33,932 nt of DNA, from positions 1 through 33,932 of the forward strand of contig CALUYU010000025.1 in NCBI GenBank assembly GCA_944325075.1, read 5' to 3'. How positions within the stretch are numbered: position 1 is the first letter of the stretch; the number at the start of each line of letters is the position of its first letter. Positions 1-33,932 of this stretch are shown piece by piece. The notes under the pieces were generated by a model. The model had not been told where the DNA came from and made no database searches. It saw only the letters and a program-made list of their open reading frames with translations. The position numbers were made by a program, and so were the translations under genes. The DNA is from Candidatus Gastranaerophilales bacterium (GTDB lineage Bacteria; Cyanobacteriota; Vampirovibrionia; Gastranaerophilales; Gastranaerophilaceae).

Positions 1-98
1 TGTGAGAGATAGCACCGGTACAATTCAAACAATTATTTTAAATTGTATTTGAATGCGAGCGGTCGGATAAGCAAGCCGGGATTAAGTAGCGCAGTTTG

Positions 99-140
99 AC
101 TCTGCCGAACAAAAACAATTGAGTATTGTTTTTGTGAGAG
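99..140 (+). repeat. D-loop hairpin element, Pro-array copy 1
   Basis: The ends are ACTCTGCCGAAC and GTGAGAG. They enclose a 9-bp stem (CAAAAACAA/TTGTTTTTG) with a 7-nt loop, TTGAGTA. The outer CTCT and AGAG can pair around an internal loop. The element sits exactly where the D-loop of the tRNA-Pro 5' fragment would continue. An identical copy lies at 231-272, and the same element recurs on the minus strand near the right end of the window with a slightly different but fully paired stem. Confidence 0.85.
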
Positions 141-230
141 ATAGCACCGGTACAATTCAAACAATTATTTTAAATTGTATTTGAATGCGAGCGGTCGGAT
201 AAGCAAGCCATGGCAAAGTAGCGCAGTTTG

Positions 231-272
231 ACTCTGCCGAACAAAAACAATTGAGTATTGTTTTTGTGAGAG
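231..272 (+). repeat. D-loop hairpin element, Pro-array copy 2
   Basis: Second copy, identical to the one at 99-140. It lies between a GTAGCGCAGTTTG fragment and GTAGCAC. The next unit downstream is the intact tRNA-Pro, whose D-loop has no insertion. Confidence 0.85.
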
Positions 273-317
273 GTAGCACTGGTGCGCTTCAAACAACTTA
301 CTCTTAAATTTCTATCT

Positions 318-391
318 CGGAATGTAGCGCAGTTTGGTAGCGCACCGTGTTCGGGTCGCGGGGGTCGCAGGTTCAAATCCTGTCATTCCGA
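318..391 (+). tRNA. tRNA-Pro (anticodon CGG)
   Basis: A full 74-nt cloverleaf can be drawn. The acceptor stem is CGGAATG/CATTCCG with discriminator A. The D-stem is GCGC/GCGC with loop AGTTTGGTA. The anticodon stem is CCGTG/CGCGG with loop TTCGGGT, giving anticodon CGG. The T-arm is GCAGG-TTCAAAT-CCTGT. The 3' CCA is not encoded, since the gene is followed by TTTTTTAATG, so a CCA-adding enzyme is required. The last 19 bases overlap the 3' end of the convergent cca gene. The upstream tandem array carries copies of its 5' D-arm. Confidence 0.93.
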
Positions 392-1818
392 TTTTTTAAT
401 GCAAAATTTTTAATAAACTCAATGGCCTGCTCTTTAGTCATAACGTCACCGTTTAATTGAGCTTCATGTAAAGCTTTTAAAATATTCCCAAGCATTGGCC
501 CCTGCTTAATATTAAGAATATCAATAACCTCATTTCCATCAAGAAGTTTTGGCAACGGCTTCAACTCTTCAATGGAATTAAAGTAGAGCGCAAGCAGGCG
601 ATCAAGATTATTGAGATTGTGAGCGATAATCTCATCAGTAATAAGCTCCCCTCTGGCAGATAATCTATCAGCTTTAGCAAGAATAATATTATCAATAACG
701 TTGTCACCAAGCTTCCTGAGATAGCGCATCATCGCTTTTTCATTAACATTTGGATCCTGCATGAGGCAGGAAGGATAAATATGGTTTTTAATCATCTCTG
801 AAATATAGCCAATCTGTTTGTTTGAACAAGAAAGATCTTTTAAAATCGGCTTAACAAGTTTTGCCCCGACATCATCGTGCTTAATAAAGCGGTGACGCCC
901 GGTATCTTTGTCAATAGTCCAGGTAGAAAACTTTCCGATATCATGCAAAAAACCGGCAAATTTTAAATGCGCCAGACGTGAAAATCCACCAAAATCAATT
1001 CTGTTAAGATGAGTTTGTATTAACTCATCAGCTTCATCGTACAAAATTTGAATCTGATTAACAGTTTCAATACTGTGATGTAAAAGATCAAGATGGTGAT
1101 GTGAATTAGGCGGAACCTGTTTTAATTCAAGAACAACCGGAAAAATTTCCTCAAGCAGCCAAGTTTTATTCATATTCAAAAGAGCTTTTGCAGAATATTT
1201 TCCGTCAAAAAGTTTCATAAGTTCATATAGTATCCGTTCTTTGGCGGGCCTTTTAATCAAACCGGAGTACTTGCAAACTGCGTTAATAGTTTCGGGACTA
1301 AGCTCAAAACCCAATGCGGCCTGAAATCTGTAGACTCTTAACAGTCTTAGCGGATCATCAACAAAGTTATTTTCATCAATATAATCAAGATTTTTGTTTT
1401 TAATATCAGCAATGCCGCCGCATAAGTCAATGACCTCGCCGGATCTAATATTAACTGCAATTGAATTAATAGTTAAATCACGACGCATTAAGTCTCTTTC
1501 AAGGGAATTTTCAATAGGATTGGTAATATCAATAATTTCGGGATTATGCTTGGAAAGACCATCTTTCAGCACAATTCTATAAATCTTATTTTCTTCATCA
1601 AGAGGAACAAAAGCAGAATTAAATAATTCATGAACCTTTAGTGCAAATTCTCTGGCATCCATTCCAACAATAATCAGATCTCTATCCAAAGGACTTTTGC
1701 CCATATAATAGTCCCTAACAGTCCCGCCAACAGCATAAATATCCTTATCAGAAAATTGAGCGGCAATTCGGGAAAGAATTTTATCAGATTTAATTTTTGA
1801 AAGAATTGTAGTATTCAT
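373..1818 (-). CDS. cca: CCA tRNA nucleotidyltransferase / poly(A) polymerase family, HD-domain type
   Basis: A 481-aa class II nucleotidyltransferase. It is expected to add or repair the 3' CCA of tRNAs, or possibly one part of it, since some bacteria split the activity between two enzymes. The GG-x-VRD motif is at residues 31-36 and the metal-binding D-R-D at about 45-47. The motif RRDLTINSIA, near residue 113, is typical of the head/neck region. A C-terminal HD domain has FLHDIGK near residue 290, as in bacterial CCA/phosphohydrolase forms. The start overlaps the end of rsmE by 29 bp, so the two are probably co-transcribed. The stop lies within the opposing tRNA-Pro gene, whose transcript would itself be a substrate because no CCA is encoded. 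The family call is firm; CC- versus A-adding specificity cannot be settled here. Confidence 0.93.
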   Translation of the reverse strand: MNTTILSKIKSDKILSRIAAQFSDKDIYAVGGTVRDYYMGKSPLDRDLIIVGMDAREFALKVHELFNSAFVPLDEENKIYRIVLKDGLSKHNPEIIDITNPIENSLERDLMRRDLTINSIAVNIRSGEVIDLCGGIADIKNKNLDYIDENNFVDDPLRLLRVYRFQAALGFELSPETINAVCKYSGLIKRPAKERILYELMKLFDGKYSAKALLNMNKTWLLEEIFPVVLELKQVPPNSHHHLDLLHHSIETVNQIQILYDEADELIQTHLNRIDFGGFSRLAHLKFAGFLHDIGKFSTWTIDKDTGRHRFIKHDDVGAKLVKPILKDLSCSNKQIGYISEMIKNHIYPSCLMQDPNVNEKAMMRYLRKLGDNVIDNIILAKADRLSARGELITDEIIAHNLNNLDRLLALYFNSIEELKPLPKLLDGNEVIDILNIKQGPMLGNILKALHEAQLNGDVMTKEQAIEFIKNFALKNRNDRI

Positions 1819-33556: not shown

Positions 33557-33638
33557 TGGTGGGCATGAAGAGATTCGAACTCCCACGCGTTAGCACTAGT
33601 TCCTAAGACTAGCGTGTCTACCATTCCACCACATGCCC
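33557..33638 (-). tRNA. tRNA-Leu (anticodon UAG)
   Basis: Read on the minus strand: acceptor stem GGGCATG/CATGCCC, discriminator A and an encoded CCA (33557-33559). The D-arm is GTG..CAC with GG at 18/19. The anticodon stem is CTAGT/ACTAG with loop CTTAGGA (anticodon TAG). The variable arm is 11-12 nt and the T-arm has loop TTCGAAT. The long variable arm confirms a class II tRNA. The encoded CCA contrasts with tRNA-Pro at the other end of the window. Its upstream side carries an array of copies of its own 5' part. Confidence 0.92.
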
Positions 33639-33684
33639 ACATATTCGATTGTCAAATCTTTCAGATTTGAGGCGTGTCTACCAC

Positions 33685-33724
33685 CTCTCACAAAACGATA
33701 TTCAATCGTTTTGTTCGGCAGAGT
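33685..33724 (-). repeat. D-loop hairpin element, Leu-array copy 1
   Basis: In minus-strand sense the ends are ACTCTGCCGAAC and GTGAGAG, with an 8-bp stem CAAAACGA/TCGTTTTG. The loop is TTGAATA here and TTGAGTA in the other two Leu copies. Those copies lie at 33782-33821 and 33879-33918. Relative to the Pro-array copies, one A-T pair is missing and another is replaced by G-C, so pairing is preserved. Confidence 0.85.
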
Positions 33725-33781
33725 ACCACATGCCCACATATTCGATTGTCAAATCTTCCAGATTTGAGGCGTGTCTACCAC

Positions 33782-33821
33782 CTCTCACAAAACGATACTC
33801 AATCGTTTTGTTCGGCAGAGT
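33782..33821 (-). repeat. D-loop hairpin element, Leu-array copy 2
   Basis: Same 40-nt element as at 33685-33724 but with loop TTGAGTA. It interrupts the D-loop of the second tRNA-Leu 5' fragment. Confidence 0.85.
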
Positions 33822-33878
33822 ACCACATGCCCACATATTCGATTGTCAAATCTTTCAGATTTGAGGCGTGTCTACCAC

Positions 33879-33918
33879 CTCTCACAAAACGATACTCAAT
33901 CGTTTTGTTCGGCAGAGT
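33879..33918 (-). repeat. D-loop hairpin element, Leu-array copy 3
   Basis: Same element as the copy at 33782-33821, followed by the start of a further tRNA-Leu 5' fragment at the window edge. Confidence 0.85.
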
Positions 33919-33932
33919 ACCACATGCCCACA

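Follow-up and report, generated by a model that had tools for sequence, protein, structure and literature searches.

The gene for tRNA-Leu(UAG) near one end of this contig is preceded by tandem units that each carry the beginning of the same gene, broken by a hairpin in the D-loop, and the question raised by the locus is how a hairpin and a piece of a tRNA came to be repeated together beside a gene that is itself intact. tRNA genes are highly conserved and are favourite integration sites. The window, by which we mean the whole stretch of 33,932 nt that was analysed, is the complete contig C25 of G000, a 2.26-Mb draft genome in 107 contigs.

Anatomy of the tRNA-end arrays

The intact tRNA-Leu(UAG) gene lies on the minus strand at 33557..33638 (ARAGORN; Rfam RF00005, 58.6 bits), and its 5′ leader contains a tandem array of three 97-bp units (33639..33932, minus strand) that runs off the contig end. 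The initial annotation had described three 97-bp units bearing the first 11 nt of tRNA-Leu, a hairpin and the second half of the D-arm, and this description was confirmed by TRF and by comparison of the units: TRF reports one array on this side (33628-33932, period 97, 3.1 copies, 98% matches), with the units arranged head to tail on the minus strand upstream of the tRNA. Read on that strand, each unit starts with GGGCATGTGGT, corresponding to tRNA nt 1-11, followed by a 41-nt hairpin element, here termed H1. After H1 the D-arm resumes with its 3′ half (TGGTAGACACGC), and a further hairpin and an AT-rich linker fill the rest of the unit up to the start of the next. All three units are exactly 97 nt long, with two variable positions, one in each hairpin loop. 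The H1 copies occupy 33684..33724 in the unit nearest the tRNA (63.4 bits with the R1 model), 33781..33821 in the middle unit (63.5 bits) and 33878..33918 in the outermost unit in the window (63.5 bits), all on the minus strand; with filters off the Leu copies have E values of ∼4e-13, and the best match in the window outside both arrays has an E value of 0.6. The predicted fold of a single 97-nt unit has an energy of -30.4 kcal/mol (z -3.4).

The array continues on another contig. In the correct orientation, C64 (L027) has a promoter-like site, TTGACA-N17-TAATAT, together with a leader hairpin and one further Leu unit, which is the first unit and is slightly different, with the divergence in its first bases. 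As the array in the window is cut by the contig end and C64 supplies an extra unit, there are at least four units, and as the C64 unit is preceded by a promoter-like site, the array lies downstream of that promoter. An AT-rich motif, approximately TTGA(A/C)AATT(A/G)AATA, occurs just 5′ of many tRNA starts with or without an array (window 33639-33655, L237, L244), and is possibly a candidate leader processing site.

A second array, of ∼132-bp units with H1, lies at the opposite end of the window (1..310, plus strand, TRF), upstream of an intact tRNA-Pro(CGG) gene (317..392, plus strand; ARAGORN; Rfam 61.2 bits). Its H1 copies are at 99..141 (R1, 57.7 bits) and 231..273 (64.6 bits), both on the plus strand, and contig C2 (L025) terminates in a similar unit. 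H1 had been thought to enter both tRNAs at an equivalent point; in fact it follows tRNA nt 11 in the Leu array and nt 20 in the Pro(CGG) array. Three more units, with H1-like hairpins and a tRNA part resembling the tRNA-Leu(GAG) of L139, are found at positions 1-302 of contig C90 (L028/L293) of the same genome. There is no intact tRNA-Leu(GAG) among the G000 tRNAs read, so that gene was probably lost in an assembly gap.

The initial annotation had proposed that orthologous tRNA-Leu(UAG) loci be compared for presence or absence of the array, and both states are seen within the genus. Among 13 genomes, five carry H1 units at this gene (G000, G003, G005, G007 and G012), five carry none (G001, G006, G009, G010 and G011), and three have a different insert or a remnant (G002, G004 and G008). 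The G011 site is unoccupied, and its upstream flank matches that of G000 through the promoter and leader. In G006, TATGGCATG stands immediately 5′ of TGGGCATG, and resembles the beginning of a first unit, apparently left behind after collapse. Adjacent units of G012 differ by a paired stem change, GAGCGAAAC..GTTTCGCGAG in one versus GAGTAAAAC..GTTTTACGAG in the other. The Leu leaders of G002 and G004 (L240 and L241) hold another element, beginning GCAAGCCGAGCAGAGCCACGA, in the D-loop of the partial copy where relatives have H1. The suggestion that the units are real, ageing copies was borne out, and the copies are recurrent.

Sequence, stem and distribution of H1

H1 has the form A-CTCTGCCGAAC-stem-GTGAGAG-G, with a covarying stem and a length of 39-47 nt including the terminal A and G. 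The exact pattern CTCTGCCGAAC-N-GTGAGAG has 12 matches in G000 and is present in 32 of 97 relatives, and the reversed pattern, used as a control, gave none in G000 or in any relative. We collected 159 H1 contexts with 68 different cores, a set that includes some contexts from the same strains present in two collections. The core is preceded by A in 151 of 158 contexts and followed by G in 153 of 155, and the flanks further out are unconstrained. Eighteen fixed bases are common to copies with differing stems, at many loci and tRNAs. Within 40 hand-chosen H1 sequences both sides were changed in 8 of 13 stem pairs (37 cells versus 14.4 in shuffles), and the covariation score was 0.204 versus 0.075 in shuffled alignments (0 of 500 shuffles as high); in most of the 40 sequences the outermost four pairs were dictated by the search pattern and had no room to vary. 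The stem is conserved in shape and not in sequence, and the element has sharp ends (A-CTCTGCC...GAGAG-G). No Rfam family matched H1 above its gathering score in the window, L022, L037, L137 or L053, where tRNA alone was matched.

A covariance model built from aligned H1 copies was run on the 97 relatives, mostly draft or metagenome-assembled genomes like the other genomes surveyed, and was positive in 58: 54 of 58 genomes of the source family and, for two further families within the same order, 3 of 4 and 1 of 3 genomes. None of the 97 relatives outside the order was positive. In a phylum sample of 386 genomes, H1 was detected in 167 of 170 members of the family and in one genome of a neighbouring family of the same order, and in none of the remaining genomes of that sample, 198 unlisted ones included. 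Copy numbers among the 97 relatives reach at least 66 in G057, with 49 and 38 matches in G016 and G031, respectively; the counts for the 386-genome sample refer to the best 16 candidates per genome. Named H1-bearing records, among the matches listed, are mostly 'Candidatus Gastranaerophilales', Melainabacteria, Cyanobacteria and uncultured bacteria. One further record is titled Acinetobacter (L124) and is possibly a mislabelled metagenome-assembled genome. H1 is a repeat scattered through the genomes of a single bacterial family, Gastranaerophilales in the named records. Carriage by phage was considered and rejected: 31 IMG/VR stretches fit the pattern, most of them variants of one 50-nt sequence, and the palindrome was present in 0 of 31. 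We found no report of tRNA-end H1 arrays in Gastranaerophilales or Melainabacteria in the open-access literature, which is not proof of novelty.

Several known classes of small repeat resemble H1. The small dispersed repeats (SDR) of Nostoc are reportedly very small hairpin repeats of 21-27 nt with compensatory stem changes that are nested in other repeats, have no known mobiliser and are confined to a group of filamentous cyanobacteria. By that description H1 shares the hairpin, the compensatory stem changes and the dispersal within one coherent clade, but at 39-47 nt it is larger, and we know of no tRNA-end arrays of SDR. Rickettsia palindromic elements are palindromic repeats, larger than H1, that can sit in frame inside genes; tRNA-end arrays of these elements are likewise not known to us. 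One H1 copy of G000 shares the in-frame habit, as it lies within a larger palindromic repeat in a 337-aa open reading frame (L023 103-1116, contig C22). Integron attC sites have R″ RYYYAAC and R′ GTTRRRY boxes, and by eye, on conserved columns, H1 could not be assigned to them, its GCCGAAC being off RYYYAAC by one base and GTGAGAG misfitting GTTRRRY. REP palindromes are described by Di Nocera et al. 2013 (PMC3733652) as extragenic hairpins of 20-40 bp in many copies; one end bears a GTAG or CGTC tag that stays unpaired. H1 is similarly small, multi-copy and palindromic, but its ends lack a GTAG or CGTC tag, its flanks are free past the A and G, it is not linked to RAYT genes and it is enriched at tRNA ends. 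RAYT-like genes of ∼180 aa were also observed (L214-L233), mostly between their own GTAGG-type palindromes; these are apparently the REP/RAYT system of the H1-bearing family.

Position of H1 relative to tRNA genes

On named contigs we kept 126 H1 copies of 141 pattern matches, among the matches listed; of the 15 that failed the palindrome score, 11 appeared chance-like and four (L118, L155) looked real and were lost. Among these listed matches, 55 of the 126 copies have a tRNA within 600 nt, compared with an estimated ∼2-3% of random points (40 tRNA genes in ∼2.2 Mb), and 71 have no detectable tRNA within that distance, 21 of them at contig edges. Many of the non-tRNA copies sit inside larger palindromic repeats. 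The nearest tRNA lies to the right of H1 in 52 of the 55 listed tRNA-near copies, on the same strand in 43 and on the opposite strand in nine.

Forty-nine copies could be mapped onto the tRNA itself. Of these, 42 lie within a copied 5′ part: 28 follow nt 11-12, six follow nt 18-20, four follow nt 26 (tRNA-Ile, past the D-stem) and four follow nt 7-8. The other seven are in copies of the 3′ part, in the T-arm, 10-14 nt inside the tRNA 3′ end and on the antisense strand. The T-arm copies belong to tRNAs for Arg, Gln, Glu, Phe and Leu. At each of the 49, the matching tRNA sequence extends right up to the edge of H1 with no stray base, and a few tRNA nucleotides are missing on the far side of H1; the distance from the tRNA end, mostly 10-14 nt, is much the same for the 5′ and the 3′ end. 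The initial annotation had seen in two arrays a recurring process specific to D-loops. Recurrence is well founded, with the 5′-side arrangement seen for seven tRNA identities in the mapped set (Leu, Pro, Val, Ile, Lys, Met and Thr), but the D-loop specificity does not hold, given the seven T-arm copies of 49, the tRNA-Ile copies past the D-stem and the 71 of 126 listed copies with no tRNA nearby. As to whether related genomes would carry the repeat at random positions, the hairpin does roam, as the same 71 copies indicate, but its enrichment at tRNA ends is strong.

The sequence beside H1 behaves differently near tRNAs and away from them. The 10 bases to its left are found again on the right, at most 700 nt away, in 47 of the 55 tRNA-near copies versus 4 of 50 copies with neither a tRNA nor a contig edge near, three of which look tRNA-array-like by eye (all among the matches listed). 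Since this recurrence is rare away from tRNAs, H1 insertion itself does not seem to duplicate its target. A first test of flank complementarity over 98 contexts gave a mean helix score of 11.9 versus 10.3 (0 of 200 permutations as high). With similar contexts removed, a hairpin apex was not favoured over other positions (28 tRNA-near contexts, p 0.27; 27 others, p 0.43), and a general preference for hairpin loops is not claimed.

We also searched the flanks of every tRNA for copies of that tRNA in three genomes, G000, G053 and G068, the last from the same order with no H1 found and with 35 of its 43 tRNA hits examined. A copy of the 5′ part was present in the 5′ leader of 8 of 39 tRNAs in G000, 8 of 38 in G053 and 0 of 35 in G068. 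The 3′ part was duplicated in the 3′ trailers of four, nine and three tRNAs, respectively. No direct tRNA-end copy was found on the wrong side in these three genomes, and shuffled flanks passed the threshold in 0 of 312, 0 of 304 and 1 of 280 tests, in the same order. Within G000, the copies at Met(CAU) and Arg(CCU) have no insert at all, those at Lys(CUU), Tyr, Arg(UCU) and Ser have other inserts, and that at Thr(GGU) has an H1-like variant; the 3′ copies of G068 have other inserts. Tandem duplication of tRNA ends and H1 are therefore separable. The 3′ copies of G000 and G053 mostly begin in the T-loop, and different inserts have a common T-arm start point of the 3′ copy. Other hairpin-rich elements of ∼100-150 nt were noted on the 3′ side of some tRNAs, where they separate the gene from a repeat of its final 16-20 nt with downstream sequence (L257, L264 and L290 in G000, L312 in G053; tRNAs Tyr, Arg(UCU), Ser and Asp), several of them with a (G)TCTTG end beside the tRNA piece, read antisense.

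Origin of the arrays

On balance we consider it probable that H1 is a gene-less palindromic mobile repeat that settled in redundant duplicates of tRNA ends, which were then amplified in tandem. By this two-part account, tRNA ends would be copied in tandem (the 5′ part with the leader, the 3′ part with the terminator) by slippage or unequal exchange, and such copies would be tolerated because the intact gene remains, for which the tyrT repeats of E. coli are a precedent. H1, with its defined ends and presumably moved by a hairpin-recognising enzyme, would land at many sites and, within tRNAs, survive solely in redundant copies: in a working tRNA it would be harmful and in a redundant end copy tolerated, and H1 and other hairpin elements would therefore be retained there, usually with nt 11-12 of the tRNA on one side and G18-G19 of the D-loop on the other. 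Units might then be added or deleted by slippage or unequal recombination, with the intact tRNA staying at the array end. A promoter-like site like that of L027 precedes the first unit in L236, but such sites were matched 5′ of the first H1 at only 4 of the 15 loci inspected, a set in which contig ends truncate some loci. Because the visible promoters precede the entire array, its units are probably transcribed in the pre-tRNA leader, and they are probably removed during tRNA maturation.

The order of duplication and insertion is the point at which the main alternative departs. The constant junctions between the tRNA match and H1 in 49 of 49 mapped copies could reflect a single event of duplication and insertion, in which a recombinase or a template-switching replication fork adds H1 in the first arm, copies the flank and the tRNA end, and leaves a restored gene on the right of H1, much as integrative elements do when they rebuild their target tRNA. 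Such one-step duplicative insertion would accommodate the rightward tRNA in 52 of 55 listed copies irrespective of tRNA strand, the similar distance of the junctions from both tRNA ends, and the T-arm start common to the 3′ copies of different inserts, a feature found likewise in the tyrT repeats of E. coli. It has difficulty with H1-free copies such as Met(CAU) and Arg(CCU) and with the dispersed H1 copies, which have no flank duplication; moreover, there are just two arrangements, D-arm sense and T-arm antisense, and the polarity may be chance or target asymmetry. We regard it as conceivable but rather unlikely, and prefer the two-part account because the left flank recurs so much more often near tRNAs than elsewhere (47 of 55 versus 4 of 50, among the matches listed).

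The E. coli repeats deserve a closer comparison. In the tyrT-tyrV locus (rttR region), the last 19 tRNA nt recur every 178 bp downstream of tyrV, as computed from NC_000913. As in H1 arrays, tandem direct units lie beside a tRNA and each contains an exact piece of the tRNA end, but the E. coli units are on the 3′ side only and at one locus, whereas H1 arrays are mostly on the 5′ side, in the D-arm, at many tRNAs and across a clade. To our knowledge, no roaming hairpin in a tRNA arm accompanies the tyrT-tyrV repeats. A broader reading, which strikes us as distinctly unlikely, is that a hairpin-using recombination or replication-repair system of this family targets tRNA ends and places H1 and other hairpin elements ∼10-14 nt inside either of them while copying the flank and the end; it would always restore the tRNA gene on the same side of H1, and the tRNA-end copies beside bacterial tRNAs in general, those of E. 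coli tyrT among them, would be its footprints.

A selective role for the hairpins seems improbable to us. As insulators, they would let the partial copies in the leader fold on themselves and avoid mispairing with the real tRNA. Across 22 loci, hand-chosen and not independent, predicted acceptor-stem formation averaged 0.50 with one real unit versus 0.32 with H1 swapped for D-loop bases (16 higher, 4 lower; Wilcoxon p 0.037) and 0.36 with shuffled H1 (16 higher, 5 lower; p 0.012), and the stability of the 97-nt unit noted above agrees with such a role. The effect is uneven, however, with acceptor-stem formation of ∼0 in several loci with or without H1 and a mean of 0.82 when no unit is present, and the dispersed copies would need a separate explanation.

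Two candidate mobilisers were rejected. Movement of H1 as a REP-type element by RAYT (Y1) transposases fits its size, palindrome and dispersal, and RAYT-like genes are present in the family, but these genes are mostly flanked by other, GTAG-bearing palindromes, with CTCTGCCG of H1 in only 2 of 20 such loci, and the H1-rich genomes G031, G053 and G004 have no PF01797 match; we judge it very improbable. Movement through an RNA intermediate by an RVT_1 reverse transcriptase of the same genome is not required, as G016 and G031 are rich in H1 yet have no RVT_1 match (57 genomes), and neither enzyme explains the distribution of H1. Finally, although the two window arrays and those on C2, C64 and C90 of G000 all touch contig ends, where repeats may be collapsed or chimeric, an assembly artefact is scarcely credible in view of the single-base differences among units and of arrays inside long contigs, such as four 90-bp units by tRNA-Lys in the 364,566-bp contig C1 of G053.

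H1 arrays combine two known kinds of repeat, the small palindromic repeats (REP, SDR and Rickettsia palindromic elements) and the tandem arrays of tRNA ends. A gene-less hairpin of ∼43 nt is near-universal in the sampled genomes of this family, and nearly half of the examined copies lie by tRNAs, with the functional gene spared. The arrays offer a reason for assembly breaks at tRNA genes in these bacteria, and the many strains, some with the site occupied and others with it empty or apparently collapsed, make both the movement of a repeat that has no enzyme of its own and the origin of tRNA-end duplicates testable.
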